DNA of 53,727 bases from Alistipes sp. (GTDB taxonomy: Bacteria; Bacillota; Clostridia; Oscillospirales; Ruminococcaceae): positions 1-53,727 of the forward strand of contig JAMPAJ010000005.1 of the NCBI GenBank assembly GCA_023667265.1. Reading direction: 5' to 3'. A program made the translations under genes and the position numbers. Positions 29,916-48,797 of this stretch are shown here, in pieces. The notes under the pieces are model-generated. The model had not been told where the DNA came from. It searched no databases and saw only the letters and a program-made list of their open reading frames with translations. Positions within the stretch are counted from its first letter, which is position 1, and the number at the start of each line of letters is the position of its first letter.

Positions 29916-31622
29916 ATGAAGATCGTAACGACCAAACAAATGGCAAAGGTGGAACAGCAAGCCGAAAAGCTCGGATATCCGCCGAGGACGCTGATGCAGA
30001 ATGCCGGAAAAAAGCTGGCGGAGCGCATAATGGAAATTACCGCCAGGGAGGGAAACTCCCCGGAAAATACAAGCGTTACCTTTCTTGCAGGCAGCGGAAA
30101 CAACGGCGGAGACTGCTTTGCGGCGGCGTATATCCTGGTCTACAGAGGCTATAGCGTTACTGTCGTAAATCTGGTAAACGAACCGTCTACCGATATTGCA
30201 AGGGAGTGCTTTGCGGCTCTTCCGGATAGGGTGAAGATAATTACGGGTTATCGCAGTGAAAATATCGAGGCCGCTATCGAGGCTGCCGAGCTGGATTACA
30301 TGACTATCCAGGACAGAGACGTTTCAAAGCTGAAGGGAAAAAAGGAGCTTTCCGCGGTGGAGAAAATTCTTCTCCGCGAAAAACAGCGTATGACCGAGGT
30401 TCGCAGCGCCATTATCTCTGCGGATATCCTCGTTGACGGAGTTTTCGGCACGGGCTTCCACGGACAGCTTGAAAAAGACCTTATGGCGATTTTTTCCATT
30501 GGAACAGGCGCTTATAAGATCGCAGTGGATATCCCGAGCGGCGGCGACGGCTCAAAGGGAACCGTCTCTCCCGGCTGCTTCAAGGCTGACGAGACTCTTT
30601 GCCTTGGCTGTCTGAAATTCGGTATGACTCAGTATCCGCTGAAAAAATTATGCGGAAACATCACTGTTGCTGACATAGGCATCCCAAAAGAAGCATACGA
30701 TGTAATAGGCAGTGAACACGGCTACTACCGGCTTGAGAGAAACAGCCTTGCAGGATTTCCGCCGAAAAGAGAGCGGGACGCTCACAAGGGAGTTTTCGGC
30801 ACAGTCCTTGTTATCTCCGGCAGTTCGTCAATGCGCGGCGCAGCGGCATTTGCGGCTCTCGGCGCGCTGAAAAGCGGCGCAGGTATCGTAAAGGTCGCCT
30901 CTGTGGAAAAGTGCATCGACACGATATCAGTTCTTGCTCCGGAGGCAACTTATATCGAAATGGAAGCCGACGACTATGGCTTCATGCTCTTCGACAGCAG
31001 CAAGGACGCGCTGAAAGACGCAATGGATAAGGCAGACGCGGTTGTTATCGGCTCGGGAATGGGCGTTACAAACGATACTATGGAGATCGTGCGGTTTGTT
31101 ATGGCAAATTCCCCTGTTCCCGTTGTCGCCGATGCGGACGCCGTTAACTGCATTGCCAGGGATATTGAGATACTGACAAACCGGAGATCCGACGTTATCA
31201 TTACTCCTCATCCCGGCGAAATGGCAAGACTGCTTAACTGCGATGCGGCAATGATAAACGAAAACCGCATTATGGTTGCAGAGAAGTACGCCGAAAAGTA
31301 CGGTATCACCGTAGTTTTAAAGGGCGCGGGAACTATAGTCTCCGACCGCCACAGCACTGCTGCAAACCACACCGGAAACGCAGGAATGAGCAAGGGCGGC
31401 AGCGGCGATATCCTTTCGGGAATCATAGGCTCGGCAGTTGCACAGGGATTTTCGCCCTACGACGCAGCCTGTGCCGGAGTTTATATGCACGGACTTGCCG
31501 GGGACGCTGCGGCTGAAAAGCTGGGTCAGGAGGCAATGCTTCCCAGAGATGTCATAGACTGTCTCTCCGATGCATTCAGGATACTTAAAGAAAAACAGAG
31601 CGAAAATAACTCTGAGTTGTAA
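29916..31622 (+). CDS. nnr: bifunctional NAD(P)H-hydrate epimerase / ADP-dependent dehydratase
   Basis: Repairs hydrated NAD(P)H. The N-terminal YjeF-type epimerase (about 1-225) shows RTLMQNAG, FLAGSGNNGGDCFAAA and DGVFGTGFHG; the C-terminal ribokinase-like dehydratase (about 265-560) shows GVFGTVLVISGSSSMRGAAA, VVIGSGMGV, ADADAVN, ITPHPGEMARLL and GNAGMSKGGSGDILSGI. At 568 residues it is longer than the usual 500-520. Much of the excess is a charged insert (about 115-165: DRDVSKLKGKKELSAVEK, ILLREKQRMTEVR) within the epimerase domain. AAGGAGTGAT precedes the ATG. Confidence 0.95.
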   Translation: MKIVTTKQMAKVEQQAEKLGYPPRTLMQNAGKKLAERIMEITAREGNSPENTSVTFLAGSGNNGGDCFAAAYILVYRGYSVTVVNLVNEPSTDIARECFAALPDRVKIITGYRSENIEAAIEAAELDYMTIQDRDVSKLKGKKELSAVEKILLREKQRMTEVRSAIISADILVDGVFGTGFHGQLEKDLMAIFSIGTGAYKIAVDIPSGGDGSKGTVSPGCFKADETLCLGCLKFGMTQYPLKKLCGNITVADIGIPKEAYDVIGSEHGYYRLERNSLAGFPPKRERDAHKGVFGTVLVISGSSSMRGAAAFAALGALKSGAGIVKVASVEKCIDTISVLAPEATYIEMEADDYGFMLFDSSKDALKDAMDKADAVVIGSGMGVTNDTMEIVRFVMANSPVPVVADADAVNCIARDIEILTNRRSDVIITPHPGEMARLLNCDAAMINENRIMVAEKYAEKYGITVVLKGAGTIVSDRHSTAANHTGNAGMSKGGSGDILSGIIGSAVAQGFSPYDAACAGVYMHGLAGDAAAEKLGQEAMLPRDVIDCLSDAFRILKEKQSENNSEL

Positions 31623-31656
31623 AATCAAGACTAATAAAAAACGGATGTTAAAAGTC

Positions 31657-31819
31657 AGAACTTGTTATCATAGGATCTGTGCGTGGATTTTTGAGCATAA
31701 TTCTGTCGAGTGCAAGGCGAAAAAGTGAAAGCATACTGTCGTATGGTTAACTTTTTCAACGCAGCAATCGGAATAATTTGCCAAAAAGACGCGTGCAATA
31801 TCCTATGATAACAAGTTCT
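31657..31819. mobile_element. MITE-like palindromic element after nnr
   Basis: A 163-bp element with perfect 20-bp terminal inverted repeats AGAACTTGTTATCATAGGAT (31657-31676, complement 31800-31819). The interior is also self-complementary at roughly three bases in four, including an AAAAAGT / AACTTTTT hairpin. It encodes no protein and is unrelated in sequence to the elements at 16032 and 45371. Confidence 0.75.
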
Positions 31820-31846
31820 TATACTTAAACACAAGAGGTGCTTATT

Positions 31847-32446
31847 ATGAAAAAACTTTTATCATCCGTTTTGGTATTTGTTATGATCTTTTGCCTGGCA
31901 AGCTGCTCTCTGCCGGTGAAAGCTCCCGGCTCAAAGGGAAAAAGGGACAACAGCCTTAACAGTCAGTTTACATCGCAAATGACCGTATGTCTTGAAAAGC
32001 TTGTCGCCGAGGGCACAGTCTCACGGTTCGGCGACGGTCTTTGGGAGGCGGAATTTGAATCCCCCGGCACTCTCAGCGGAGTCAAGCTCTCCTTCGCCGA
32101 CGGAAATGTCACCGCAAGCTATAAGGGTCTCAGCTTCTCTGTTCCAAGGTCGGCTATCCCTGTAAAGGCTATGCTTGTAAATCTCATGGACGCCGTGGAT
32201 TCGGCTGCACGCGAAGCTCAGCTTACCGGTACGGAAAAGGACGGCGTTTTCGAGATAACCGGCGAGCTTGAGGGCGGCGGCTATACTCTCTCCGTTGATT
32301 CCGACGGAAATATTTGCAGCTTTGAAATGCCCAATAATCTGCTGAAAATGACGTTCACTGAGGTGAAAGCCTCCGCAGCACCGAAAACCGAGACCACTCT
32401 TCCAGCCGAGGAGACTACGGAAGAGGTCACCGAGGGTGAGGCTTAG
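31847..32446 (+). CDS. lipoprotein of unknown function
   Basis: 199 residues from the ATG at 31847 (GAGGTG upstream). Lipoprotein signal with lipobox LASC (Cys about 21), then a domain of about 150 residues with regular beta segments (LWEAEFESPGTLSGVKLSF, VTASYKGLSFSVPRSAIP, DGVFEITGELEGGGYTLSV) and a Thr/Glu-rich tail (TTLPAEETTEEVTEGEA). Membrane-anchored outside the cell. The fold is probably beta-rich and lipid- or protein-binding; I do not recognise the family. Its last four bases overlap the convergent metalloprotease-like gene. Confidence 0.8.
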   Translation: MKKLLSSVLVFVMIFCLASCSLPVKAPGSKGKRDNSLNSQFTSQMTVCLEKLVAEGTVSRFGDGLWEAEFESPGTLSGVKLSFADGNVTASYKGLSFSVPRSAIPVKAMLVNLMDAVDSAAREAQLTGTEKDGVFEITGELEGGGYTLSVDSDGNICSFEMPNNLLKMTFTEVKASAAPKTETTLPAEETTEEVTEGEA

Positions 32447-33561
32447 GCTGGAAAGTAATAATCCAGCAGCAGATCAACTATTCTCGTGTAGCTCCTGATG
32501 CCGTCCTCCACGCCGTTTATCTTCATGCTTGTGTCAGCGGCAGCATCCGAAACTGCGTCTACTGTCTCCGTTGGAATGATCTCCTTTTCGGCATTTTCCT
32601 CCCAGTAATTATCGGGGAGAAACCTGAACCAGTCGTTCTGAACCTCCGCAGAAATAGCGTCTGTCATTTCATAGGCAGAAACGATCTCGTTTTCGTATAT
32701 CTGATTATGGACATATTCAAGCGCGCTGATATATCCGCTGTACTGCATCTGCGGATCATCGCTTCCGGTGGTGGCTATAAAGGATATGAAATTGCACTCG
32801 TCCTCCTGCATGAAGCCTTTCAGATGTGAGTACTCATGGCAGATGACCTCCGGCTTTATCTCGTTGATCATATCGCTGTTATAGGTAGCTTCCATCGAAA
32901 ACGGAAAATACATACCCGATGTACTTGTCTGGCTCATAAAAAAGGAGAACATGATCGGCTTCGGGCGCGGATAGTAGCCTCTGAGCTGGGGATACTTCTC
33001 AGACGCCCTTTCCATAGCCTTTTTACACTCCTGCTCCACCTCTATGTCCAGGGCAAAACGATTTTTCTCGTCTCTCGGTACTTCCAGGGCAAGGATATTG
33101 CACTTTTCTATCAGCATGGCGTAAAGCTGTTTAAGCTGCTCATTGTCGTGCTCCGAGGCTGTAAAAAAGCGTTCGGAAAAACGCGTGCAGCCATAAAGCG
33201 AAAAGCAGTTCAGAGCCTCAGTGCTGAATATGAACGTAAGTATCCAAAGGGCTGCCGTGAGCGATACCGCCGCTGTCTGTCTGCGCCGCTTTTTGGCGAA
33301 AATCAGCATCAGCAGCACTACAGGTATGCCTATCAGCACAATAAGTATAAACGCTATTATCATAAGCTCGCCCAGAGAAACCGGAAGAAAACTGCTAATA
33401 AAGGCGTAGGGCGTTGAGATTACCGGGAAAATATAGTCGGCGTAAAAATCGGCAGCCGGCCTGAAAAGCCTGCATATAAGAACCAATATCGCCGAAGCTG
33501 CCAATATTATCAAAGGGATAAGATAACGCTTTCTTATCCCCTTTTTTTCTGCACCTCTCAT
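32443..33561 (-). CDS. membrane protein with HExxH motif (DUF3810-like metalloprotease)
   Basis: 372 residues. Basic N-terminus, then predicted helices about 13-32, 65-90 and 98-115, followed by an extracytoplasmic domain with CHEYSHLKGFMQEDECNFI: HEYSH matches the zinc-protease HExxH motif, and a downstream Glu (EDE) could be the third ligand. The segment MSQTSTSGMYFPFSMEATYN and this motif fit the DUF3810 family, predicted membrane metallopeptidases. Last gene of the 12-kb operon, four bases after the BIG2-dockerin gene. Substrate unknown; a role in trimming neighbouring surface proteins is inference. Confidence 0.82.
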   Translation of the reverse strand: MRGAEKKGIRKRYLIPLIILAASAILVLICRLFRPAADFYADYIFPVISTPYAFISSFLPVSLGELMIIAFILIVLIGIPVVLLMLIFAKKRRRQTAAVSLTAALWILTFIFSTEALNCFSLYGCTRFSERFFTASEHDNEQLKQLYAMLIEKCNILALEVPRDEKNRFALDIEVEQECKKAMERASEKYPQLRGYYPRPKPIMFSFFMSQTSTSGMYFPFSMEATYNSDMINEIKPEVICHEYSHLKGFMQEDECNFISFIATTGSDDPQMQYSGYISALEYVHNQIYENEIVSAYEMTDAISAEVQNDWFRFLPDNYWEENAEKEIIPTETVDAVSDAAADTSMKINGVEDGIRSYTRIVDLLLDYYFPA

Positions 33562-33565
33562 CGTC

Positions 33566-35074
33566 TTAACCCAAGTCGGCAGGATCTGCCGGAAGTGCGT
33601 TTATGATCTTTGCATCGAACATCTGGATCACAAGCGAGTCCAGCGCTGTTACGCCCGGGCTGCCGTCAACATCGGCATTAAGCTGTCCCTGCTCGGAAAG
33701 TACGTATTTATCGCCGTTTCCAATGCTTTGAAGGATAAATGTCGCATCTGCTATATCAACTGTACCGTCGCAGTTTGCGTCTCCGTAAAACCGGCTTGGA
33801 ACAACGCTGAACCGCATATAGCTGAGTCCTGTATCCGACTCGGCAATAACGGCTGCCGTACCTGTTCCGACAGCTGTGATCCTGCCGCTGCCGTCGATAG
33901 TTAGGACGCTCTCGTCAGTGGAGAAAAATTCAACATTTCCGCTCAGTCCCGTTGAAAACTCCAGTTCCCGCCCTACGCCCTTTATCTCGGTAGTCTGTAT
34001 ATTTCCGGTATTTTCAACCTTGACCGAGGCGGTATATTCAACGCCGTCCACCTTAGCCGTAACGATACATTCGCCGTCACCGACAGCTATGACCGAGCCT
34101 CTTCTTGTTGCGATCGCTATAGAACTGTCGGAGCTGCTCCAGCTGACTTCGGCTTCGTCGGGAATACCGCTTATGCTGATTTTTCGCGAGGGCGTCGCGG
34201 CGTCCAGGCAGATCTCGCCCATATCCGTATTCGTCTGAGGATTCCCGGTATAAGTCGAAACGACTTCAAAATAGCCTGTCGTGCCATTGGACTCAATATA
34301 AATGCGGCAGCTTCCTGCTCCGACAGCTGTTATAAGTCCAGCGGCTGAAACCGTGGCAACCGTCTCGTCAGTACTGCTGAGAGTGACCGGAATATCCGGA
34401 GTAATGCCTGTTATCTGCTGAGTTGTTATCTTATCGCTCAGCTCAACCTTTCCGAGAAACTGCGGCGCTTTTTCCGTCGGCTTCTCCGCTTCCTCATATT
34501 CAGAAGTGACATTGATGATATAGTTAGTATTTCCATACTGCGCTGTGATAACGCAGCTGCCCCTGCCAACAGCTGTTATAACGCCGCTCCCGTCAACTGC
34601 TGCAACATCCGGATCGGAGCTTGTCCAGACCGCATCACCTGCTGTGATGCCGGTAAGCTTTACCTCCGCACTTTTCTGCTGATTTGTCAGCGTCACGCTG
34701 CCGACGCTGACAGTGTTTACCTCGACCTTTGATTCATTGAGGACTGTCACGTCAAAGCGTATCAGCTCATCCGGCAGAACGGCGTAAACAGCCGTACTTC
34801 CCTTTCCCGTTGCAGTTACATTGGCAGAGAGATCGCTGGTAGGAGTCACCGTAGCTATGGATTCATCTTCGCTGTACCAGGTTATCTTCACCGCCCCGGT
34901 AAAGGTTATGGGCACTGAATCGCCAATATAATTCAGTGTTATGGCGTTGCCCCGGAACTGATCCTCCGCATGGACTGCGCCCGTTGTATTTTCAAAATTC
35001 CGGCAGTCAACGGCAGCGCATGAAGCAATCACACACACAGCCGCCGCAGCTGCGATCATTTTCCTGTAATTCAT
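33566..35074 (-). CDS. BIG2-repeat surface protein with C-terminal dockerin
   Basis: 502 residues. Signal sequence with a cysteine (VIASCAAVDC), so lipid attachment is possible; then about five Ig-like BIG2 repeats of 75-80 residues, each with a ‘WSSSD-S-A-V…GxITAVGxGSCxI’ pattern; then a dockerin at 433-500 ([19 protein letters not shown], second loop ADVDGSPGVTALDSL) close to that of the GH11 and GH9 enzymes. No catalytic domain. Such proteins usually act in adhesion or as spacers. Here the dockerin suggests that it is held by, or holds up, the cellulosome. Good GGAGG before the ATG. Confidence 0.9.
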   Translation of the reverse strand: MNYRKMIAAAAAVCVIASCAAVDCRNFENTTGAVHAEDQFRGNAITLNYIGDSVPITFTGAVKITWYSEDESIATVTPTSDLSANVTATGKGSTAVYAVLPDELIRFDVTVLNESKVEVNTVSVGSVTLTNQQKSAEVKLTGITAGDAVWTSSDPDVAAVDGSGVITAVGRGSCVITAQYGNTNYIINVTSEYEEAEKPTEKAPQFLGKVELSDKITTQQITGITPDIPVTLSSTDETVATVSAAGLITAVGAGSCRIYIESNGTTGYFEVVSTYTGNPQTNTDMGEICLDAATPSRKISISGIPDEAEVSWSSSDSSIAIATRRGSVIAVGDGECIVTAKVDGVEYTASVKVENTGNIQTTEIKGVGRELEFSTGLSGNVEFFSTDESVLTIDGSGRITAVGTGTAAVIAESDTGLSYMRFSVVPSRFYGDANCDGTVDIADATFILQSIGNGDKYVLSEQGQLNADVDGSPGVTALDSLVIQMFDAKIINALPADPADLG

Positions 35075-35097
35075 TTTTTCCTCCGTTTTAAAGAGCT

Positions 35098-37962
35098 TCA
35101 GAACAAGTTCTCAACATTTTCAATTATATCGCCGCAGGACGAAACCGCTTCCTTTGAGCCGAAAACACATCGGCTTCCGATGCTTTCAAGAACGTCCGCA
35201 GCCTTCAGCAGATCAGCCCGGCTGAGTTCCAGCATACGGCGGCGTACAGCGCGTCTGTCCTCGTGAGTGATGCCCCTGAAATATGAGGCGTCAGCCGCAG
35301 CTCCATATGCACTGTCGGACATCAGCGGCTCGCTGCTTGCTATGGTACTGATTATATACGAGCCTATGTCCGGCTCTCCTCCGCAGTATTCGCGGATAAA
35401 ATCAGCGGCAGCGGCAAATGTGCCGAATGTTTCCGCCGGAGACGGGTCACGGTAGGAGTAGAACGCCGTTTCGCCCATGTTGTTTGTACCGCAGCCTGTG
35501 CCGTATGCGCCGCCCTTGACGCGCACCTCATTCCAGAGGTATTCGTATGTCAGAACCGATGACAGAACTCCGAATACCGCCTTGTCAGTGTTATGCGACG
35601 AAATAGCCGCTCCGGTGTACGCAATTCCGGCAGGCACGATAACTCCCGACGACAGCGAATCTGCATGGCCAACAGTCATTTTCTCCGCAGCAGCAGCCGT
35701 ACCCTCCGGGAGAAGCGACGCTAAAAGCTCAAGTCCGCACGTCTCAGCCGAGGTTATGCTTGCAGTAAGACGGCTGCGGCAGAAAATACGCTCTGCAAGT
35801 TCCGGCATGGACGCTGTCAACTCTTTCAGCTGTTCCTCCGAAAGTCCTGCTGCGCTGTGGAGCTGCTTGTAGCCCTCGAAACCGATGAATCTCTCCAGCA
35901 GAGCCGACTCCGCAGAAAGCACGCTTCTTGCATGCCGCATGGCAAAGCTGTGTCCCTCGGCTGTTATCTCCTGCTTTTCGTCCTCGTCGTCCTGCTTCAG
36001 CAGTTCGGAGATCATCCTTGTGTCATCGTATACAGTCCGGGTGAGAATTTCAGCCATAAGTTCCTGTGCCGCCGTAAAATTGCGGCGGAGGAATTTTGTA
36101 CGGAGAGCAAAATACACTCTGCACTCCTCCGGCTTATCCGGCGTGCCATAGGGCAGAAGCTCTGTGCTTATGCCGCCGAAAATGCCCATGATCTTCTTTT
36201 GCAGTTCAGCTCCTGTGCTGTTACGTGTAGGCAGCTCCGAAATAAGTCTTTCTATGAGAATGAGGGTATCGAGCTCCTCCGGCATCAGATCGGCAACGGA
36301 AAAATAGAGATCGACAGTCATTATTTCATGGTCACGGGCAGGATGACGCAGGACCCGGAAACCATTCTCCTCCGATACGGACGTCCTGAACTCTATTGGT
36401 TCAGGGCTTACCTCGGAGAGAGGCAGCTTCGGCAGAGTGTCGATCGCCTCCTTTGTATCAGGAGCAGCCTGCCACTCTGCAAGATTTTTATTAAGCTTCG
36501 CAAGCGCAGCCCTGCCACTTTCGTCCAGAGCGGTAAATTCAGCCGTAATGCGCGCTTTTTCGGCAGCCGTCTGTTCAGCTCCGAGTGTCCGCGATGGCAG
36601 CATAAGAAGAACTGCGCGTCCCTCCTCATCAAGAAGCCAGTCCGAAAGAAGCTCTTCAAAATAGCCGGAAGCTATGCTTTCTCTCAGCTCGTCGAACACA
36701 TTTCCGCACTGAATATACTCCAAAGGATCGCCGCCGTGAAGCCATGAAAGCATTCCGTTCATGCACCTGGTGAGTCCCTTTGGCTCTTCCGACTGACGGA
36801 ATCTGAATTCGCAGCGATTTATCGTCGCCTCCAGGATGTCGCTGCCGATTCCGCCGGAAACAAGAGCCTCCGCGGTCTTTTTTACTGCCGCAAGAATATC
36901 GTCAGCCTTATCCTCGTCGGTGTTGTAGACATTCAGCATGGCAAAGGGCTGCATAATTTCGTCAACTATCTTCGCGTCCACGTCAAGGCACAGCCCGGTA
37001 TTCAGTATCTCACGCTTGAACTGCGAATCATTGGAACCGACAAGCGCCTCAGTCAGCACAGCATAGCCGAAAACGCGCTTTCTGTCCTTCCAGTCAGCTA
37101 CTATCTTGCCGATGGCAAGGTGGGTATGCTCCGCCTCATCTTCCTCCTCGGTTATCTCATATGACTCACGGCGGAGACATGACGCAGCAGGCGTCTGCCA
37201 GGGGATCTCCGGAAGCTTTTCAGCCCTGCCGAAGTCAGCTAAATATCCGTCAATAAGCTCCAGAACAGCGTTCAGATCTACGCCGCCGTCCAGGTAAAAA
37301 TAGGAATTGCCGGGGTGATAGAAGCGTCTGTGTGCCTCGAGGAACTGCTCGTATGTCAGATCAGGTATCGACGCCGGAAGTCCTCCGTAAACAAAGCGAT
37401 AGCTGCTCTCCGGGAAAAGCATTTTCATCATATGGCTGTCGATCTGCTCCTCAACCGATGACATACAGCCCTTCATTTCATTGAAAACAACGCCCTTATA
37501 CATCGGCTCGCCCTCTCCGTTCCACTCGGTATGGTGACCCTCCTGGTAAAAAATGTTGGGCTGGGTATATATTGCAGGCTTGAAAACAGCGTCGAGATAA
37601 ACGCTCGTCAGGTTCATAAAATCCGCAGAATTACGGCTTGAGATCGGGAACATTGTCTTATCCGGAAAGGTCATGGCATTCAGAAAAGTGTTCATAGAAC
37701 CTTTCAGAAGGTACAGGAAAGGCTCTTTTACCGTGTAACGCTCCGAGCCGCCCAAAACCGAATGCTCCAGGATATGGAAAACGCCTGTGTCGTCCTCGGG
37801 AACAGTCTTGAATGAGACTGAAAACAGCTTGTTCTCGTCGCCGTTATTCAGCCAGGCAAGCCTTGCGCCTGTTTTTTCATGGCTCATTTCCACAAATTCG
37901 CCGTCCTCAGCCTGACGGATATTTGTCACACGGAAGCCGTGGATAAGGTCATTTTTATTCAT
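35098..37962 (-). CDS. M16C-family zinc metallopeptidase (presequence-protease-like)
   Basis: 954 residues, the full M16C length. Inverted zinc motif HILEH at 63-67 with a downstream ligand in VVFNEMKG, then the M16C-associated middle domain and an inactive C-terminal M16 half (GVIVPAGIAYTGAAI, VRVKGGAYGTGCG with the conserved Arg/Tyr-type region). No signal peptide, so it is expected in the cytoplasm, where such enzymes degrade peptides. It begins 9 bases after the dockerin gene, with AAGGAGG in the gap, so it is firmly inside the surface-protein operon, an unusual context. Confidence 0.93.
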   Translation of the reverse strand: MNKNDLIHGFRVTNIRQAEDGEFVEMSHEKTGARLAWLNNGDENKLFSVSFKTVPEDDTGVFHILEHSVLGGSERYTVKEPFLYLLKGSMNTFLNAMTFPDKTMFPISSRNSADFMNLTSVYLDAVFKPAIYTQPNIFYQEGHHTEWNGEGEPMYKGVVFNEMKGCMSSVEEQIDSHMMKMLFPESSYRFVYGGLPASIPDLTYEQFLEAHRRFYHPGNSYFYLDGGVDLNAVLELIDGYLADFGRAEKLPEIPWQTPAASCLRRESYEITEEEDEAEHTHLAIGKIVADWKDRKRVFGYAVLTEALVGSNDSQFKREILNTGLCLDVDAKIVDEIMQPFAMLNVYNTDEDKADDILAAVKKTAEALVSGGIGSDILEATINRCEFRFRQSEEPKGLTRCMNGMLSWLHGGDPLEYIQCGNVFDELRESIASGYFEELLSDWLLDEEGRAVLLMLPSRTLGAEQTAAEKARITAEFTALDESGRAALAKLNKNLAEWQAAPDTKEAIDTLPKLPLSEVSPEPIEFRTSVSEENGFRVLRHPARDHEIMTVDLYFSVADLMPEELDTLILIERLISELPTRNSTGAELQKKIMGIFGGISTELLPYGTPDKPEECRVYFALRTKFLRRNFTAAQELMAEILTRTVYDDTRMISELLKQDDEDEKQEITAEGHSFAMRHARSVLSAESALLERFIGFEGYKQLHSAAGLSEEQLKELTASMPELAERIFCRSRLTASITSAETCGLELLASLLPEGTAAAAEKMTVGHADSLSSGVIVPAGIAYTGAAISSHNTDKAVFGVLSSVLTYEYLWNEVRVKGGAYGTGCGTNNMGETAFYSYRDPSPAETFGTFAAAADFIREYCGGEPDIGSYIISTIASSEPLMSDSAYGAAADASYFRGITHEDRRAVRRRMLELSRADLLKAADVLESIGSRCVFGSKEAVSSCGDIIENVENLF

Positions 37963-37971
37963 ATGTCCTCC

Positions 37972-38745
37972 TTAATCCTCCGGAAAAACCGCAGCCTCAG
38001 CCAGTATTCCGGAAGTATCGCGGCCTGTGGAAACGGCGGAATAGTAAACCAGTATCTTTGCTGCATCAGATGCGTCTATCTTTCCGTCATAACGCGCATT
38101 TGCGGCAACCCTCTGCCTGCTTGTAAATGTATATCCCTTTCCTGTAGAAAGGTTTGAGTATTCACGGAGTACAAGTGCGGCGTCGGAAGCGTCTATCCTT
38201 CCGTTGCCGTCAACGTCGCCCATTCTCACATAATTCAGATGTACATCCACCGTCGTTCCCGTTTCCGTTGAAAAACCAATGTCCCAGTCATTTTCAGATT
38301 CTTCTCCGTCGATGTTGAAAACATAGGAAAGCTCCTTGAAGCTGTCGGGAGCTTCGTTGAGGTCGGGAACTGTAAAATCTGCGGTATAGGGCTTTGAACT
38401 TACGTCATAGATTCCCCCGGTAAGCTCAACGGATATATGATAATTCCTGTAATCATCGTCGGTATTGTCGTGACCCTCGATGTCAAAGAAATACGTTCCG
38501 CCGGAAACTATTCTGACGTAATACGGCTCGTCTGTGACCTCCGGAGAATCGAATGTGATGTCAATGGCGGCAGAAATATTTTCCGGAACAGTAACGGCGA
38601 TTCTTCCGTTTACGTCAAGTCTATGAAAATCCTCGTAAACGAGGCCTTCTTCATTCAGCGCCTGACCCTCCGCAGATGCCGGGATCGCTCCGAGAGATGC
38701 CGCGCCAAGACAAAGCGCCGCAGCAATTGAAATTATCTTTTTCAT
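37972..38745 (-). CDS. secreted dockerin protein, distinct dockerin type
   Basis: 257 residues. Signal peptide about 1-24 (ending IPASAEG), a domain of about 145 residues with ISAAIDITFDSPEVTDEPYY, GGTYFFDIEGHDN and YHISVELTGGIYDV, probably a beta sandwich, then a dockerin at 175-245 (GDVDGNGRIDASDAALVLREYS; second loop ANARYDGKIDASDAAKILVYYS). This dockerin differs clearly from those of the enzymes and probably binds another cohesin. The ATG is two bases after the DHHW stop and GGAGG lies within that gene's end, so the two are translationally coupled. No known catalytic family. Confidence 0.85.
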   Translation of the reverse strand: MKKIISIAAALCLGAASLGAIPASAEGQALNEEGLVYEDFHRLDVNGRIAVTVPENISAAIDITFDSPEVTDEPYYVRIVSGGTYFFDIEGHDNTDDDYRNYHISVELTGGIYDVSSKPYTADFTVPDLNEAPDSFKELSYVFNIDGEESENDWDIGFSTETGTTVDVHLNYVRMGDVDGNGRIDASDAALVLREYSNLSTGKGYTFTSRQRVAANARYDGKIDASDAAKILVYYSAVSTGRDTSGILAEAAVFPED

Positions 38746-38747
38746 TT

Positions 38748-40154
38748 TTATTCCTCCATATTCTCAAATATTTCTATTTCAAACGCCCTGCCGCCGGTAT
38801 TTTCGACGACGAGCTTAATATCGCCGTTTATTTTCTCTGCTGGTATGTACAGGGAAAATCCAAGAGAGCTGCTTTCGCCCTCGCAGCCGAGAAGTCTGTC
38901 CTCGAAGCAGTTAAAGGCTTCGTAGGCTTTGCCGCCGATCACCGCATATATACGATGATCTCCGCCATACGCAGCGGCCTCATCAGGGATAACGCCGAAA
39001 AGGTGGGTGAAGCTTTTGTAGGCGCGTGTGTAAAGCTCTGCCGGCTTGCCGCATTTTTCTGCCGTGATATCCGATATATCCGCCTCCGGAGCAGCCACAA
39101 CAGGCGCATATTTCTGAAGCCTGTCAAGATTACGCTCAACTATCTCCACAATGACCGTGTTTCCCTCGCCAACTCCGCTCAGGTCATATGCCTCGGAGCG
39201 TGAAAACTCCGCAGTATTGAAGCATTCCGCCATATACGGCAGGATAGCCTCTCCATAGGAATCACGGTACATAATCAGGTCGCCGCTGCCGCTTTCGCAG
39301 TATGTGGTGATATTAAGATCGTCCAGAGCCTGAAAACGGCTGGTATACTGGTATGTAAAAGCGTAGTCATTGTGAAGCTGGGCGTCCTTTGCATCTTCCG
39401 CAGGATAGAGCATCGCCGCAAGATCGCCGAGCCTGTCGTTTTTTATGTACCAATCCCCAGAAACAGGACAGCTTTCACGCCCCAGCTTCGCCATAATAAA
39501 GCTGTGACCTGCATATGCGCCGAAATTGTTCCAGTGGGTATCGGTCTTATGATACAGCGGAGTTGCGGAATTGAGACCAAGGAGAGCTTCTTTCATGTCA
39601 ATATAGAAATCATCCCCCGAAAGAGCCGCCGCAAGCGCCTGATAGTTCCCGGCGTTCTCCGACGGGATATAGTTAAATGGCATATATTCCGGATAAAGCG
39701 AATTTTTGTTGGGCGCGGAAAAGAACACGAACTCCGCCCCTGCATCTTCGCAGCATTTCTCCATAAGCCGCAGATTATGGGCTATATTGCCTATCGCCAT
39801 GGTGTCAAGACAGTTGATATGCAGAAAATCGTCGGCAGTCTCGCCGTAGAACAGCCAGCCGTCCTTTCCAACGATAACATCGCTGTTGGAGGATGTGCCA
39901 AAAACTGCAGATCTCAGCCGTCCGTCGGCGTTTACAAGCTGCTGACGAAAAGCGAAATGCTCCGAAAACCATGTCTCGAACTCCGAAAAAAAGCTAAAAT
40001 TCAGCTTTCCGTCCTCAGTCTTTACCGAGGGCAGCTCTCCAAGCTCACGTTTTTCCTTTGAACCGTCGCTTTTCATAAACGGTGTAAGAACAGCCGGTGC
40101 AAGGCATATACCAAGGAAGGCTGCGGTGTATATTCTATAGAAGATCTTTTTCAT
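38748..40154 (-). CDS. DHHW/AlgJ-like protein, O-acetylation partner
   Basis: 468 residues with an N-terminal membrane anchor (about 7-27). SGNH-like extracytoplasmic domain: VIVGKDGWLFYGETADDF (about 93-110), FFSAPNKNSLYPEYMP, the KTDTHWNNFGAY motif with D205 and H207, and a late YRDSYGEAILPYMAE that may hold the catalytic Ser. AlgJ/AlgX-type proteins complete transfer of acetyl groups to exported polysaccharide together with an AlgI-type MBOAT. The MBOAT gene is 15 bases upstream, the classical pair. Good AAGGAGG before the ATG. Confidence 0.9.
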   Translation of the reverse strand: MKKIFYRIYTAAFLGICLAPAVLTPFMKSDGSKEKRELGELPSVKTEDGKLNFSFFSEFETWFSEHFAFRQQLVNADGRLRSAVFGTSSNSDVIVGKDGWLFYGETADDFLHINCLDTMAIGNIAHNLRLMEKCCEDAGAEFVFFSAPNKNSLYPEYMPFNYIPSENAGNYQALAAALSGDDFYIDMKEALLGLNSATPLYHKTDTHWNNFGAYAGHSFIMAKLGRESCPVSGDWYIKNDRLGDLAAMLYPAEDAKDAQLHNDYAFTYQYTSRFQALDDLNITTYCESGSGDLIMYRDSYGEAILPYMAECFNTAEFSRSEAYDLSGVGEGNTVIVEIVERNLDRLQKYAPVVAAPEADISDITAEKCGKPAELYTRAYKSFTHLFGVIPDEAAAYGGDHRIYAVIGGKAYEAFNCFEDRLLGCEGESSSLGFSLYIPAEKINGDIKLVVENTGGRAFEIEIFENMEE

Positions 40155-40169
40155 TTTCGCTGCCTCCTT

Positions 40170-41573
40170 CTAAAATCTAAAGTAGATAAACGGGTTGTAG
40201 GACGCGGAGGAAAGAGTCAGCACGCACAGCAGCAGCAATACCAGAGATATGCCGTAGGTACACGCCTCATATACCGAATATGCCTTTTCGGACGCCGCCC
40301 TTGTCCGGAGCTTCTCTGTTACGGGCATTGAAAATACAGCCGCAAGCGCCAGCATCACCAGGAACATGGGCGAAAGCAGGCTGAAAAATACCGCCGTCTG
40401 CTCGCTGTCTCCGGAGGGTATGAACATATGTCCAATGAACCGGCAGGCATCTCCAAGGGTATCTGCCCGGAAGAAAACAAATGCAAGCGTCGTCACCAGA
40501 AGCGCGTAAATATGGCGGAATGGTCTCAGCCATTTTCCGGTGTTGATTATTTTGTATGACTCCAGCATCATGAATCCGCCGTTGAGAAGTCCCCAGACTA
40601 TGAAATTCAGACTTGCTCCGTGCCATAGTCCTGTGCAGAAAAAAACAGCAAGCTTATTGAATGCCGTCCGCACTTTTCCCTTGCGGTTTCCGCCGAGAGG
40701 GATATACAGGTACTCCTTGAACCAGGTCGATACCGAAATATGCCACCTGCGCCAGAACTCCTGCATACTCTGGGAAACATAAGGGTAATTGAAGTTCTCG
40801 CGGAAATCGAAGCCGAACATTTTTCCGAGACCGATAGCCATGTCGCTGTAGCCGCTGAAATCGAAGTATATCTGGAAAAGATAAGAAATCGCGCCAAGCC
40901 AGGCGAGAGGCACTGAAAGCTCCGCCGTATCCATGGCATATATACTGTCTGCCGCAAAAGCCATGGTATTGGCGATAAACAGCTTTTTTGACAGACCAAG
41001 GATAAACCGTCTCACGCCCTCCGCCGTCTTTTGCGGAGTTGATACGCGGTGGTCGATCTGATCAGCAAAGTCGTAATACTTGACGATCGGACCTGCCACA
41101 AGCTGCGGAAAAAACGTTATGTACAGAGCAAGCCGGAACAGACTTTTCTGGATATATTTCGGCTCTTTGTAAGCGTCTATGACGTAGGACATTGCCTGGA
41201 AGGTATAGAAGGAAATGCCTATGGGAAGAGCGATCTTCGGCACTGTCACGCTTAAAAAAGGAAGCCTGTTTATCATTTCCGCACCAAAGCCCGCATACTT
41301 GAACACGCCCAGCATCAGAAGATTCAGGGCAACTGCGGCGGCAAGAGCAGCTTTTCTGTACTTGTTTTCGTGCTTCATAGCCCTGCCGAACAGGTAGTTC
41401 ATAACGATCGAAACGATCATCAGAACGACTGCCTTCGGTTCGCCGTAGGTATAGAACGCAAGGCTGAAAATAAGCAGAACAGCGTTTTTTGCCGTTATAT
41501 TTGGAATCAGGCGGTATAGAATATATACCGCCGTCAGAAAAATAAACAGGAATACAGGACTGCTGAATACCAT
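40170..41573 (-). CDS. MBOAT-family O-acyltransferase (AlgI/DltB-like)
   Basis: Multi-pass membrane protein that passes acyl groups across the membrane for polysaccharide O-acylation. 467 residues, ten or more helices. Family marks: LPIGISFYTFQAMSYVID (about 117-133), FPQLVAGPIVKY, the FDFSGYSDMAIGLGKMFG segment, QEFWRRWHISVSTWFKEYLYIPLGG around H278 and the conserved histidine H318 in TGLWHGASLNF. No D-alanine (dlt) genes nearby, so acetyl transfer with the next-gene DHHW protein is more likely than teichoic acid alanylation. GGAG before the ATG overlaps the upstream stop region. Confidence 0.93.
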   Translation of the reverse strand: MVFSSPVFLFIFLTAVYILYRLIPNITAKNAVLLIFSLAFYTYGEPKAVVLMIVSIVMNYLFGRAMKHENKYRKAALAAAVALNLLMLGVFKYAGFGAEMINRLPFLSVTVPKIALPIGISFYTFQAMSYVIDAYKEPKYIQKSLFRLALYITFFPQLVAGPIVKYYDFADQIDHRVSTPQKTAEGVRRFILGLSKKLFIANTMAFAADSIYAMDTAELSVPLAWLGAISYLFQIYFDFSGYSDMAIGLGKMFGFDFRENFNYPYVSQSMQEFWRRWHISVSTWFKEYLYIPLGGNRKGKVRTAFNKLAVFFCTGLWHGASLNFIVWGLLNGGFMMLESYKIINTGKWLRPFRHIYALLVTTLAFVFFRADTLGDACRFIGHMFIPSGDSEQTAVFFSLLSPMFLVMLALAAVFSMPVTEKLRTRAASEKAYSVYEACTYGISLVLLLLCVLTLSSASYNPFIYFRF

Positions 41574-41582
41574 GACGTCTCC

Positions 41583-42323
41583 TTATACCGGCATATAGAT
41601 GTCAATGGAAACTACGGTATCGCCGTCATATTCAAAGCTGAGGGAATTGCTTCCGCTGTAGTAGTAGACAAATCTCTCGAATTTCGTCTCGCCTGTGCCG
41701 TAAACGGACTCGACGTCGCCGCGTGAGCTGCCTACGGATATTCCGCTGGAAAGAGGGTATCCGCCGTTTTCAATAGTTACGTCATAGATGCGGTCGCCGT
41801 CTCCGGCGATGTAGCAGAAAACAGTCATTCCGTCATAATAGCAGACTCTCTGATCCGCGCCGTTGGAAAGGCAGCCCTGGACTACCTCGGAGCTCTGAGG
41901 CTCTCCGTAAACTGAGGTGAAATCAGAAAAATTTCTGTCAAGCACGCTGTAGTCCATAGGCACTCCTCCTGCGTCCGGCTGATCAGGCTCGGGCGAGGGC
42001 TCGTTATATGGCTGGTCAGGCTCATCTGACGGTTCGTCGTCAGGCTCATCGGAAGGCTCGTCAACTTCGTCAGCTTCTGTGACTGCCTCCGTCACAGGCT
42101 CTGTAGACTCGGTCGCTTTCTCGGTGGGCTTCTCTGTTTTGTCAGCCGTTGCAGCCTCTGTGGTCACTGTCTCCGTGGTCTCCTCGCCGGCAGAGGTCGT
42201 CACTCCGGGAAGCTCCGGAAGCTCGGGCTTTTCTGTGTCAGCCTCCTCCTTGCCGCAGGAAAATGCCGCAGCAGTGATAACAGCCATTGCCGCCAGGATA
42301 GCCGCCGTTTTCTTCATCTTCAT
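41583..42323 (-). CDS. lipoprotein with Glu/Asp/Pro-rich spacer
   Basis: 246 residues. Lipobox AAFSC (Cys about 23), a long low-complexity stalk (about 30-125) rich in Thr/Glu then DEPSDEP-type repeats, and a C-terminal domain of about 110 residues (MDYSVLDRNFSDFTSVYGEP, GMTVFCYIAGDG, GISVGSSRGDVESVYG, FVYYYSGSNSLSFEY). The stalk would hold that domain away from the membrane through the wall. The C-terminal domain resembles small SmpA/BLIP-like folds in pattern only. Member of the 12-kb operon; AAGGAG eight bases before the ATG. Confidence 0.82.
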   Translation of the reverse strand: MKMKKTAAILAAMAVITAAAFSCGKEEADTEKPELPELPGVTTSAGEETTETVTTEAATADKTEKPTEKATESTEPVTEAVTEADEVDEPSDEPDDEPSDEPDQPYNEPSPEPDQPDAGGVPMDYSVLDRNFSDFTSVYGEPQSSEVVQGCLSNGADQRVCYYDGMTVFCYIAGDGDRIYDVTIENGGYPLSSGISVGSSRGDVESVYGTGETKFERFVYYYSGSNSLSFEYDGDTVVSIDIYMPV

Positions 42324-42347
42324 TTTAGTATCTCCTTTTTTGTCTCT

Positions 42348-44309
42348 TTATTCCGAATAGAACTTTGCGTTTACGTACTGGTAGATCGTGTAGTTCGCAT
42401 TTTGCAGGGTCGTAAAGCTTACGCCGTTATATCCGTTGCAGGTGTCGTAATTCAGCCATTTTCCGTCAACATAGACCTGATTCCAGTAATGATCGCCTGA
42501 GCCTCTTCCCGTACCGTAGACAATACGTGTAGTATAGCCTGCCTGCTGGAAGAGGAGATCTGTTACAGCCGCAAAATAATAGCATACAACAGCCGGCTTA
42601 TCCAGGGCATAATTTGCAAAGTAAGACCATCCTATGGACTCGATCTGAGCAAGAGTTTTTGTGCTCTCTATAAATTTGTAATAGTTGTGCGACACAACAT
42701 AATTGTAGATAGCGCCTGCTGTTTTTCCGGTAGAGGCAAGGATAGTGTTTGCTCTCTTCTGAACAGCGGAGAACGCTATCGCATGACCGTCTGCCGCAAG
42801 GTTATAGTCGCCCACGATTGTATTTGTCATCATCTTGCCGTCAGAGGGATTGAAATAATACTTTTTACCGCTGATAGTGATCCAGCCGGTCTGCATTTCG
42901 CCGTCTGCCGCAAAGTAATACTTGCTGCTGTCGATAGTTACCCAGCCCGTCTGCATAACGCCGGAATTCGGCTCAAAGTAATATTTTTTCTTGTCTATAA
43001 CAAGCTTTCCTGTCGTCATTACGCCTGTTTTCACATCAAAGTAATACTTCTTGCCGTCAACTTCTGTGATGCCGAAGGACATTGCTCCCGTTGTCTTATC
43101 GAAGTAATATTTCTTGCCGTCGATAGTCTGCCAGCCGGTCTTCATTTTTCCGTCGGCGGCAAAGCAGTAGTTTTTTCCGTCGATGGTTACGTTTCCGGAA
43201 GCCATTGCTCCTGAACCGGGCACAAAATAGTAACGGCTGCCCTGATAGTCCGTAAAGCCCTCAGCCATTACGCCGTCATCCAGGAAAAGAACTGTATATG
43301 CGTTATCTCCGCCGGCAAACCCGGTAAAGCCTGTTTTTGCCGTAAAGGTGGATTCGTCGAAGTAATAGCGGCTGCCGTTTATCGTCTGCCAGCCAGTACA
43401 GAGAATACCGTTCTCATCGGCATAATAGAAACTGCCGTCAAATTCGGCAAAGCCTGTCACCATAGCTCCGTTTTCACTGAAAAGCCGCGTACCTCCGCCG
43501 TATTCCGTGACGCCTGCGGCATATGTGCCGTCGGTATAGTAAAGCCTTACGCTGCCGTCGATGTCTATAAGTCCGGTATTGAGCCGTCCGGTGCTTTCAT
43601 CCAGCATATAGGGAATGCCGTTTATTTCGGTAATTCCGGTTTTAAGTCCCTCCTGCGGATCAACGTAGTAGCCGTCGCCGTCAACTGTGATAAATCCGGT
43701 CTGTATGAGACCGGTATCAGGGTCGTAATAATATGTTCCGCCGCTCACATACGTCCATCCGGTCAGCTCCGCACCTGTTTCATCAAAGAAATAAGGCATA
43801 CCGTCTACAGAATATTCGCCCTCGGCAAGAACGCCATCCTCCTTGATGTAGTAAATGCTGCCGTCATACCCGGTAAAGCCCTGTCCCTGTACGGTATCGC
43901 CCTTTTCGCCGAAGAGAACAAGCGCTCCCTCGTCAGTTCTTACAGCTCCTGCCGCCTTTCCCTCGTCGGGATCAAGATAATACTCCTTGCCGCAGTATGT
44001 CATCCATCCGTATACGGGCTCGCCTGTTTCGTGATCGTAGTATCTTCTCTTTCCGCCGACAGTTCTCCAGCCCGTTTTCAGCACGCCGTTGCTTGAAAAA
44101 AGATACGGCACGCCGTCGATAGTCTGTTCGCCTGTGAGGGCTCTTCTTGTCTCGTCAAAATAATAGATCCTGCCGTCGTCATCGGTGTACCAATCGCCGA
44201 CAACTCCCCAGATGTCGCCCTCCGCAGCAAATGAAGCAGCCGGAACAGCAGCCGCAAGTGTGAGCACAGCCGCAGCTGCGCAGATTATCGCCTTTCTGTT
44301 GTTCTTCAT
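42348..44309 (-). CDS. cell-wall-binding-repeat protein with transglutaminase-like domain
   Basis: 653 residues. Signal peptide about 1-28; then about 20 choline/glucan-binding-type repeats (about 35-500) of the GWQTIDGKKYYFD kind; then a C-terminal transglutaminase-like domain (about 522-653) with the triad C576 (PAVVCYYFAA), H607 (GDHYWNQVYVDGKW) and D622 (LNYDTCNG). The repeats bind wall polymers or glucans in other Firmicutes. The triad suggests a protease or cross-linking activity; which one cannot be told. First gene of the long operon, right after its promoter, with AAGGAGG before the ATG. Confidence 0.9.
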   Translation of the reverse strand: MKNNRKAIICAAAAVLTLAAAVPAASFAAEGDIWGVVGDWYTDDDGRIYYFDETRRALTGEQTIDGVPYLFSSNGVLKTGWRTVGGKRRYYDHETGEPVYGWMTYCGKEYYLDPDEGKAAGAVRTDEGALVLFGEKGDTVQGQGFTGYDGSIYYIKEDGVLAEGEYSVDGMPYFFDETGAELTGWTYVSGGTYYYDPDTGLIQTGFITVDGDGYYVDPQEGLKTGITEINGIPYMLDESTGRLNTGLIDIDGSVRLYYTDGTYAAGVTEYGGGTRLFSENGAMVTGFAEFDGSFYYADENGILCTGWQTINGSRYYFDESTFTAKTGFTGFAGGDNAYTVLFLDDGVMAEGFTDYQGSRYYFVPGSGAMASGNVTIDGKNYCFAADGKMKTGWQTIDGKKYYFDKTTGAMSFGITEVDGKKYYFDVKTGVMTTGKLVIDKKKYYFEPNSGVMQTGWVTIDSSKYYFAADGEMQTGWITISGKKYYFNPSDGKMMTNTIVGDYNLAADGHAIAFSAVQKRANTILASTGKTAGAIYNYVVSHNYYKFIESTKTLAQIESIGWSYFANYALDKPAVVCYYFAAVTDLLFQQAGYTTRIVYGTGRGSGDHYWNQVYVDGKWLNYDTCNGYNGVSFTTLQNANYTIYQYVNAKFYSE

Positions 44310-44408
44310 AAGTCCTCCTTTTAAACAGCGCCGCCTGCCTAAAGCGACACTATATTTATATGTTCAATAATTATTTCTTATCTCTGACAGACAAAAGTCT
44401 GCATAGTA

Positions 44409-44437
44409 ATTATACATCATATCTTAAAATAAGTCAA
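44409..44437 (-). promoter_or_regulatory. promoter of the 12-kb surface operon
   Basis: Minus strand TTGACT (44437-44432), 17-base spacer, TATAAT (44414-44409), about 100 bases before the first gene. A small CAGAC / GTCTG hairpin follows. No other good promoter was seen inside the eight genes. Confidence 0.8.
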
Positions 44438-44481
44438 TAGCACATTTTGTAAGAAAACTGTTCAGCGTCTCAAACGCGCTG

Positions 44482-45234
44482 TCATTCCTCCTGCGCTCTT
44501 ATCTCCGTAAATCTGAACCGCTGTTTGTACTCTTTCGGCGTTACGCCCGTGTATTTTCTGAACATCTTGATAAAATAGCTCTGCGAACTGAAACAGAACA
44601 GATTGCTTATTTCAAGATCGCTGTAGTCCGAATACCGCAGCAGACCCGTCGCCTCCTCGATCTTCTTCCGGTTCACATATTCGCTGAAGGAAATTTTCAT
44701 TTCCTTTTTGAAGAGCCGCGACAGATACGACGGATTTATCGACAGATATCCGGCGCAATCCTCAATTCTGATCCTGCTGTGAAGATGCTCGCTTATATAT
44801 TCAACAGCACGGACGACACGCTTTGAGATAACTCTTCCGCTCTGTAAACGGCGCATTTTTTCTGTGTAGTCCTCAACCATTTTCCAGTGTGTTTCCCGGA
44901 CAGCCTCTATGCTTTCGCATTCGTCAGCCCGCATAATATACACGTCGCTGAGGCTGTAGGCGTCCTCCGTGGTCATTCCGCCGCCTATGCAGACTCTTGC
45001 TATAAGGGCGGCTGATACGGTAAAATGATACTTCATGTTCTGCAGCGGATCCTTGCTTAGCGTTCCGCAGCCCTCGCAGAAAAGCGGCTCGGCATATCTG
45101 CGGACAGACTCGATATTTCCGGCGGAAATGCTCTCATAAAACGCCATTTCACGGTCGAATGAGGCATATTCAAAATTCTCCTCACGATGTGAAAAAAAGT
45201 GCGATAAAATATCATGCTCGCCTTTGTAATTCAT
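44482..45234 (-). CDS. AraC-family transcriptional regulator
   Basis: About 250 residues from the ATG at 45234 (GGAGGAG eight bases upstream; the frame runs further up without support). The N-terminal about 150 residues form an unrecognised helical domain with possible metal or redox cysteines (FCEGCGTLSK). The C-terminus holds the two helix-turn-helix motifs of AraC (IEDCAGYLSINPSYLSRLFKKEM and ISNLFCFSSQSYFIKMFRKYTGVTPKEYK, given in parts as seen). It ends 45 bases before the operon promoter, on the same strand, and could control it or the nearby GH9-GH16 gene. Confidence 0.88.
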   Translation of the reverse strand: MNYKGEHDILSHFFSHREENFEYASFDREMAFYESISAGNIESVRRYAEPLFCEGCGTLSKDPLQNMKYHFTVSAALIARVCIGGGMTTEDAYSLSDVYIMRADECESIEAVRETHWKMVEDYTEKMRRLQSGRVISKRVVRAVEYISEHLHSRIRIEDCAGYLSINPSYLSRLFKKEMKISFSEYVNRKKIEEATGLLRYSDYSDLEISNLFCFSSQSYFIKMFRKYTGVTPKEYKQRFRFTEIRAQEE

Positions 45235-45304
45235 ATTCTCATCTCCTCCGCAGCTATACACAATAGATTCTATCATAAAAATAATAAAATGTCAACTGCA
45301 TCTT

Positions 45305-45343
45305 GAAAAACAAAAAGCTCCTTCGTTTTACCGGAGGAGCTTT
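45305..45343 (-). terminator. terminator of the GH9-GH16 gene
   Basis: Minus-strand stem AAAGCTCCT (45343-45335) / AGGAGCTTT (45322-45314) followed by TTGTTTTT. The 233-bp element at 45371 lies between it and the gene. Confidence 0.8.
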
Positions 45344-45370
45344 CGGAAGGGATGAATGTTGATGTTTTAT

Positions 45371-45603
45371 TTAAGGCAATACCGCACAAAGATTGTGCGG
45401 CAGATGCGCAGTCGAATTTTTCGTCAGATTGCATAAAAACGACGCAGGCATACTGGTCTGTCGGTCAGCCCCTCTGTCACTTCGTGACACCTCCCCAGCG
45501 GGGAGATCACGTATGTCAAGGAGTTTTTGTGTAAGATGACGGAAAATTCGCAAGCAGATGGCGTGCAAAGTCGTCAGACGTGCTTTGTGCGGTGTTGCCT
45601 TAA
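45371..45603. mobile_element. MITE-like element touching the GH9-GH16 stop codon
   Basis: 233 bp with 21-bp terminal inverted repeats (45371-45391 and 45583-45603, one mismatch; ends TTAAGGCAA). It carries a CCGCACAA-AGA-TTGTGCGG hairpin and the GTCACTTCGTGAC motif familiar from short Firmicute repeats. It encodes no protein. It sits between the gene's last codons and its terminator; the TAA stop at 45602-45600 is part of its end. Confidence 0.8.
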
Positions 45604-48600: not shown

Positions 48601-48797
48601 TTCTCCACGGAAAGAGCTGCCGCGCCGCCGCTCTCCTTGTAAATAGCCCAGCCGCTTGTGCCTGTGTCGAATGTCGGATTGCTCACGATGTTCTTTGCCG
48701 CGAATACTGTGCCGATATTTGCGGCAGGAACGACCGCCGTCATCATCGTGCAGGCGGCGATCCCGGCAAGGATACGCTTTAAACCCTTTTTCTTCAT
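45600..48797 (-). CDS. bifunctional cellulosomal beta-glucanase (CBM4-Ig-GH9-dockerin-GH16)
   Basis: Secreted enzyme expected to cut cellulose (GH9) and mixed-linkage or beta-1,3 glucans (GH16). Counting from three residues before the chosen ATG: signal peptide to about 37; CBM4-like module 38-190; CelD_N-type Ig domain 200-290; GH9 294-720 with DAGDY (D346, D349), H650-H653 region (EHPHHRPS) and acid E704 (NEVTIYW); dockerin 737-804 ([15 protein letters not shown]); Thr/Ala linker; GH16 848-1068 with WDEIDIE (E957, D959, E961). ATG at 48797 is preferred for GAGGTG seven to eight bases before it. A weak hairpin GCATATTC / GAATATGC (48846-48871) lies in the leader. Confidence 0.95.

Follow-up and report, generated by a model that had tools for sequence, protein, structure and literature searches.

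A conserved five-gene core in Ruminococcus joins a probable PatA/PatB1-type O-acetylation pair to a ScaH-like dockerin protein

In PatA acyltransferases, the tyrosine of a C-terminal hexapeptide FXYXXF (FIYANF in Neisseria) is auto-acetylated and can donate its acetyl group to PatB. Fusion of this hexapeptide to the MBOAT protein is the arrangement described for acetyl-CoA users, while in the Dlt system the shuttle motif lies on a separate protein, DltX (PMC12148441). In Bacillus anthracis, the secondary cell wall polysaccharide serves as the anchor for proteins with SLH domains. When acetylation of this polymer is reduced, some SLH proteins are not retained, although direct binding studies argue for only a small contribution of the acetyl group as such to binding (PMC7759979). 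In Ruminococcus flavefaciens, group 4 dockerins bind the scaffoldin ScaE (PMC5301203) and, in strain FD-1, about one third of the dockerin open reading frames (ORFs) are predicted carbohydrate-active enzymes, with many of the others having no known role (PMC3573020, PMC2930009). Here, an operon-like locus is described in which a putative acetylation pair and a dockerin protein of this type stand side by side. It lies in a stretch of 53,727 nucleotides from a fibre-degrading gut bacterium (contig JAMPAJ010000005.1 of assembly GCA_023667265.1, hereafter the window), and its first five genes are conserved as a unit in most of the related loci read.

The window spans a complete contig (G000:C41); the genome comprises 2.57 Mb in 45 contigs and is 96.3% complete. 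The ORF listing gives a minus-strand run of eight ORFs from 44309 down to 32443, here named g1 to g8 (Table 1), with intergenic gaps of 24, 9, 15, 2, 9, 23 and 4 bases. An original prediction, made from the letters of the window, had described eight close-set minus-strand genes with gaps of 2-24 bases, and this layout is confirmed. Its domain labels agree with Pfam as well, the protein called “HEYSH” being DUF3810 and the lipoprotein belonging to no family.

A scan of GTDB species genomes yielded 142 relatives; locus counts come from the best 80 of these 142 (L044-L123, among which the 13 genomes of L031-L043 recur, the two sets not being summed). L046 and L047 are two contigs of a single metagenome-assembled genome (MAG). 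A profile of g4 matches 75 of 125 genus genomes, the window's own among them, and the kept loci include R. flavefaciens FD-1 (L077), R. flavefaciens YRD2003 (L104) and Anaerotruncus sp. MC2020 (L108). The genes g1-g2-g3-g4-g5 are complete, in order and on one strand in 69 of the 80 loci, including that of FD-1. Only upstream core genes are missing in L044, L058, L101, L107 and L122, and only g5 in L068 and L117, each time at a contig end. Among loci holding both genes of a pair, spacing is at most 60 bases for g4-g5 in 72/74, g3-g4 in 76/78, g2-g3 in 73/76 and g1-g2 in 56/73; start codons were chosen heuristically and some g1-g2 gaps are therefore overestimated. The genes around the core vary from locus to locus. 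The conserved unit is the first five genes, not the eight.

Table 1. Coordinates of the eight-gene run and its upstream elements in the window.
Feature	Coordinates	Strand	Description	Place in the locus	Basis
g1	42348..44309	-	secreted protein, choline-binding-type repeats and C-terminal transglutaminase-like domain	core	Pfam
g2	41583..42323	-	lipoprotein, long acidic/Thr/Pro-rich stalk and C-terminal alpha-beta domain	core	alignment, structure model
g3	40170..41573	-	MBOAT acyltransferase, C-terminal hexapeptide FIYFRF (Tyr464)	core	Pfam, motif
g4	38748..40154	-	membrane-anchored SGNH-type (AlgX/DHHW/PatB1-like) transferase	core	Pfam, motifs
g5	37972..38745	-	secreted beta-domain protein, C-terminal ScaH-like dockerin	core in Ruminococcus	Pfam, structure-chain matches
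g6	35098..37962	-	M16C (PreP-like) peptidase	linked neighbour, also occurs without core	Pfam
g7	33566..35074	-	Big_2 repeats and enzyme-type (group-1-like) dockerin	neighbour	Pfam
g8	32443..33561	-	membrane DUF3810 protein (HEYSH)	neighbour, also occurs without core	Pfam
Lead promoter TTGACT-N17-TATAAT	44409..44437	-	11/12 matches	recurs upstream of g1 in relatives	
AraC-type regulator	44482..45276	-		just upstream of core	Pfam

At the centre of the core, g3 matches the Pfam MBOAT family (PF03062, 1.1e-37). Its terminal hexapeptide is read as FIYFRF in 74 of 78 orthologues, FIYLNF in three and FIYYRF in one, so that FXYXXF with its tyrosine is kept in all 78. The LWHG motif, identified by eye as the catalytic histidine region, is found in 76 of the 78, L101 being cut by a contig end and L082 showing no exact match. 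The partner g4 matches ALGX (1.9e-17) and DHHW (1.4e-9); among solved structures it comes nearest to B. cereus PatB1 (1.4e-9), followed by AlgJ (0.0015). The motifs D-x-H-W-N and R-D-S are kept in 80/80 loci (D205, H207 and S299 in the window protein); from what is known of SGNH enzymes, we take the serine and the Asp-x-His to be the catalytic residues. Because the FIYFRF hexapeptide is fused to g3, SGNH-type residues are present in g4 and PatB1 is the structure nearest to g4, these two proteins most likely form a PatA/PatB1-type envelope O-acetylation module. The same features, with AlgJ as the other near structure, support the original prediction of an MBOAT-DHHW O-acetylation pair.

A second MBOAT-DHHW pair of the genus (L163-L172) served as an internal control. 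Its MBOAT, 28-32% identical, lacks the FXYXXF end in 10/10 loci read, which suggests a different acyl-transfer route or substrate. The surroundings of this pair yielded neither a g1-like nor a g2-like gene in these loci. This other pair sits in a conserved run of housekeeping-type genes.

The first gene, g1, combines choline-binding repeats (3.6e-68) with a Transglut_core domain (3.5e-8), and its C-terminal Cys, His, Asp pattern is present in 69 of 74 orthologues. Among the five exceptions, three ORFs end in the repeats, one has a serine after the aspartate and so misses the pattern, and one is a different-looking protein. Since g1 has no dockerin match in Pfam, it would be held by a route other than a dockerin; choline, a glucan and a wall polymer are candidate ligands of the repeats, which sequence does not tell apart. 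The lipoprotein g2, for which no Pfam family was found, has an invariant Cys23 in 56 aligned sequences, and its structure model exceeds a predicted local distance difference test score (pLDDT) of 90 for the C-terminal domain only (residues about 123-246).

The dockerin of g5 is recognized by Pfam (Dockerin_1, 9.7e-7 for the window copy, in a scan which covered 48 of 74 g5 proteins), and its nearest solved chain is 8ajy_B, the ScaH dockerin, far ahead of other dockerins. Its two repeats share a mean identity of 47% in the 61 proteins with two stretches by pattern, a figure taken without a control set. The dockerin of g7 is nearest to 5m2o_B, a “Group I Dockerin” (1.1e-14), followed by 5m2s_B (1.3e-9). 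Because the classes differ, ScaH-like for g5 and enzyme-type group-1 for g7, the two proteins probably dock at different cohesins. The original prediction had both dockerin proteins anchor or space the cellulosome; g5 is indeed the stable partner of the pair in the genus, but one statement cannot cover two proteins of different classes. In the window's strain, the partner of g5 would be ScaE, a sortase-anchored wall scaffoldin.

Taken together, the chance is somewhat better than even that the core is a PatA/PatB1-type module for O-acetylation of a cell-envelope polysaccharide, with g5 docked on ScaE in Ruminococcus. By homology and motifs, g3 would take an acetyl group from acetyl-CoA and load its own C-terminal Tyr464, from which the acetyl would pass to Ser299 of g4; g4 would then transfer it to an extracytoplasmic polysaccharide, a wall-linked one being the likeliest. 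On the wall, g1 would sit through its choline-binding-type repeats and present the Cys-His-Asp transglutaminase-like domain, while g2, as a membrane-tethered accessory lipoprotein, may brace the machine. The dockerin of g5 would plug into the cohesin of sortase-anchored ScaE and display the beta-sandwich domain on the wall near the other parts.

The nature of the acceptor is addressed by the wider family. Outside the genus, a g4-family protein is found in 15 of 293 genomes of the order (E 1e-30), and the g5 domain in 0 of 293 (E 1e-4). The neighbourhoods of 10 of those 15 matches were examined: a g2-like lipoprotein adjoins in seven (L153, L155, L156, L157, L158, L161, L162) and a Transglut_core protein in six (L154, L155, L156, L158, L161, L162), other genes lying between these two and g4 in L162. 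These neighbour counts are lower bounds, because simple gene calling in L153-L172 overlooked g3 (L155, L162) and g4 (L160). All eight MBOATs called outside the genus end in FIY[FA][RQ]F. BLAST returned no g5-like ORF from these ten loci, of whose ORFs the dockerin scan covered only part. Since the pair recurs with its transglutaminase-like and lipoprotein neighbours where no g5-like gene was found, acetylation would not need the cellulosome link. The transglutaminase-like, lipoprotein, MBOAT and SGNH set appears to be an envelope module that extends more widely through the order, its older parts recurring without g5. The companion domains of the transglutaminase-like protein vary, from a weak choline-binding repeat with fn3 (L154) to fn3 (L155) and surface Ig-like domains (L162). 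In another family of the order, it carries SLH domains beside g2-MBOAT-SGNH genes (L158:10648-12264, minus strand). This swap, together with the SLH proteins held on polysaccharide in B. anthracis, favours a wall polysaccharide as the acceptor. Peptidase_M15/VanY-type proteins also adjoin the acetylation genes in two of these loci (L153:1991-3241, L157:10503-12500).

A different acceptor for the same chemistry, namely a secreted exopolysaccharide, a cellulose-like polymer, peptidoglycan or a surface protein glycan, is possible, though clearly the less probable choice. MBOAT-SGNH pairs elsewhere acetylate alginate, cellulose and peptidoglycan (PMC12148441), g4 also matches AlgX/DHHW and AlgJ, and no polymer genes beside the core point to an acceptor. 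However, the closest solved chain of g4 is PatB1, which acts on a wall polysaccharide, and g1 bears wall-binding-type repeats, replaced by SLH in one relative.

Several observations weigh against a wall acetylation module with g5 docked on ScaE. No acceptor emerged from the loci read, in which polysaccharide genes were not noticed beside the core. No g5 match was obtained in L118-L121 despite the presence of the pair, and four of their genomes are dockerin-rich; in these loci g4 is 35-36% identical, L119 starts inside g4, L120 has no g2 match, and in L118-L120 a secreted protein follows g4, with no Pfam family in the two that were scanned. The beta domain of g5 has no convincing fold relative. 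In the ScaE homologue of the window's genome, no Cohesin model was matched (Pfam, E 0.001), so its assignment rests on similarity to ScaE structures. Across the genus, a ScaE-like protein is found at E 1e-8 in 69 of the 75 genomes with g4 and in 50 of the 50 without, and the six genomes lacking one (G061, G071, G088, G099, G104, G131) all carry the core; hence ScaE-like proteins do not track the core. Finally, the compared genomes are related by descent and many are incomplete MAGs, so the locus counts are not independent events. Cohesins were detected by Pfam in 24/24 genus genomes of the first set, with the core present or absent.

The co-occurrence result for ScaE makes slightly less likely a stronger proposal, in which a single mechanism underlies envelope acetylation and cellulosome display. 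There, ScaE-held g5 would bring g3 and g4 to anchoring sites or read the acetylated glycan, and the acetyl pattern of the wall would set where and how densely ScaE complexes and g1 are displayed. Such a coupling is regarded as rather doubtful.

Several variations on g5 were observed among the relatives. Within its beta domain (residues about 85-136), a DxNDNPDS-like motif, which recalls cadherin calcium sites, is present in 50/74 proteins and degenerate in the window copy. Some genus orthologues (L038, 6549-8627 of the 5-kb region, L039 and similar ones) have a long Thr-rich linker and continue beyond the dockerin with further C-terminal domains. A g5-like dockerin is also carried by other proteins. 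In L127 (413-1753), in the same genome, such a dockerin (63% identical) belongs to a GDSL lipase/acylhydrolase, possibly a surface esterase and conceivably one opposing the acetylation module. In L132 (476-1690, minus strand) it belongs to an N-acetylmuramoyl-L-alanine amidase (Amidase_3), a cell-wall hydrolase apparently held by a g5-type dock.

The three genes that follow the core in the window encode proteins with M16C_assoc and PreP_C domains (g6), Big_2 and Dockerin_1 domains (g7) and DUF3810 (g8, 5.8e-90). That all eight genes form one functional system is improbable. In its favour, gaps of 4-23 bases link g5 to g8, all eight genes are present in 5/80 loci (L045, L046, L047, L050, L073), L044 retains g2-g8 on a contig which begins inside g2, and in 14 of 16 loci with g6 this gene starts no further than 17 bases from where g5 stops. 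However, these 16 are all the loci with g6 among the 80, and five genomes that lack a g4 orthologue (G006, G007, G010, G012, G014) contain homologues of both M16C and DUF3810, on one contig and 1.6 to 8 kb apart in four of the five. The two lie on opposite strands in G010, the M16C protein of G012 is a more distant homologue (41%), and G014 is only 66% complete. In G008, about 30 kb separate the core from M16C. Because relatives can have M16C and DUF3810 while lacking the core, and M16C lies apart from it in G008, the eight-gene run is the five-gene core joined to another chromosomal neighbourhood. The gene order which the original prediction proposed to compare across relatives is kept for the first five genes rather than for the eight. 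In the window, g6-g8 are probably co-transcribed with the core, as neighbours that would stand outside the function of the module.

It is similarly improbable that g5 is a chance neighbour unrelated to acetylation. The window's genome is rich in dockerins, with 82 matches at E 0.001, and in 3/10 loci of the control pair (L165, L167, L168) a dockerin protein is encoded at a distance of a few genes. However, a single orthologous g5 family with the same N-domain follows g4 in 74/80 loci, within the short spacing given above, while the surroundings vary. A Dlt-like D-alanylation pair is very improbable, because, although the closest solved chains of g3 are DltB (3.7e-21) and its sole NCBIfam match is LTA_dltB (144 of 375 bits, far under the cut-off), the hexapeptide is fused to the MBOAT rather than placed on a DltX-type protein, g4 is PatB1/AlgJ-like, and no carrier-protein gene was noticed, either in the core of the window or among the loci that were read, no search having been aimed at one.

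The original prediction placed one TTGACT-N17-TATAAT promoter at the head of the run, and this promoter is both present and conserved upstream of g1. The exact sequence precedes the g1 orthologue in L045, L046, L054, L060 and L073, the five relatives printed. Of 66 usable loci, 24 have a best site with at least 11 of 12 matches within 350 bases upstream of g1, a level reached by 0.3% of shuffled sequences; as shuffling preserved base composition only, this contrast is rough. On these two grounds, the lead promoter exceeds chance expectation. Promoter-like sites in 30000-46500 number 30, whereas shuffles gave 16.2 +/- 4.0. Some sites of the same scan with 9 of 12 matches fall within the gene run, hence internal promoters may exist. 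The AraC-type gene is a possible regulator of the core, since homologues (at least 50% identity) flank 11/80 loci in three arrangements; in nine of these loci the homologue precedes g1 and shares its strand. Its best NCBIfam match, below the cut-off, is the YSIRK-adjacent surface-antigen regulator.

Further upstream, a 229-bp element (45373-45601) with inverted ends AAGGCAATACCGCACAAAG / CTTTGTGCGGTGTTGCCTT separates the AraC-type and glycosidase genes. Its matches in the genome number 50, with 40 of 92 candidates scored; four of them, itself included, are near full length with 90-100% identity. The element is a repeat resembling miniature inverted-repeat transposable elements (MITE-like). The adjacent protein (45600-48806) contains CBM_4_9, CelD_N, GH9, a mid-protein dockerin and a terminal GH16 by Pfam, and a homologue lies near the core in L063, L067 and L074.

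In agreement with the original prediction, which knew no system with this gene set, full-text literature searches found no description of a dockerin/acetylation union or of a transglutaminase-lipoprotein-MBOAT-SGNH set, most subscription journals and all supplements lying outside their reach. Neither the FD-1 dockerin survey (PMC2930009) nor the FD-1 genome paper (PMC2721979) uses the word “acyltransferase” or “acetyltransferase” in its main text. One of the dockerin families without a known role now has a conserved genetic context, tied to an envelope-modifying machine. This context makes testable both the role of ScaE-type non-enzyme dockerin proteins and the placement of ScaE on the wall.

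Among described systems, PatA1/PatB1 of the Bacillus cereus group, which serves the secondary cell wall polysaccharide, resembles the locus in its MBOAT and SGNH pair, with PatB1 nearest to g4, and in having wall-bound proteins as possible clients (PMC7759979). In Ruminococcus, however, the pair stands within a conserved run with transglutaminase-like repeat, lipoprotein and dockerin proteins. The Gram-negative PatA/PatB system of peptidoglycan shares the C-terminal hexapeptide on the MBOAT, FIYFRF here and FIYANF in Neisseria (PMC12148441), but in the searches made g4 matches AlgX/DHHW/PatB1 rather than PatB, the neighbours are others and the host is of the Gram-positive type. The AlgI/AlgJ/AlgX alginate and Wss/Ccs cellulose acetylation systems have the same class of enzyme pair (Pfam ALGX and DHHW, AlgJ match), whereas a polysaccharide synthase was not noticed in the loci read and wall-type and dockerin partners are added here. 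DltB/DltD shares the MBOAT fold and SGNH partner, and differs in that g3 has the motif fused while Dlt has the DltX microprotein. The g5 dockerin is closest to that of ScaH, as in the group 4 proteins docked on ScaE in R. flavefaciens, although none of these is linked to an acetylation operon in the available parts of PMC5301203 and PMC2930009. The group 4b dockerin proteins of the same species group carry transglutaminase-like domains on surface proteins (PMC2930009), whereas g1 has choline-binding-type repeats in place of a dockerin match. MBOAT-SGNH acetylation and ScaE-type dockerins are each already known, and their conserved union is a variant of the known acetylation machine.

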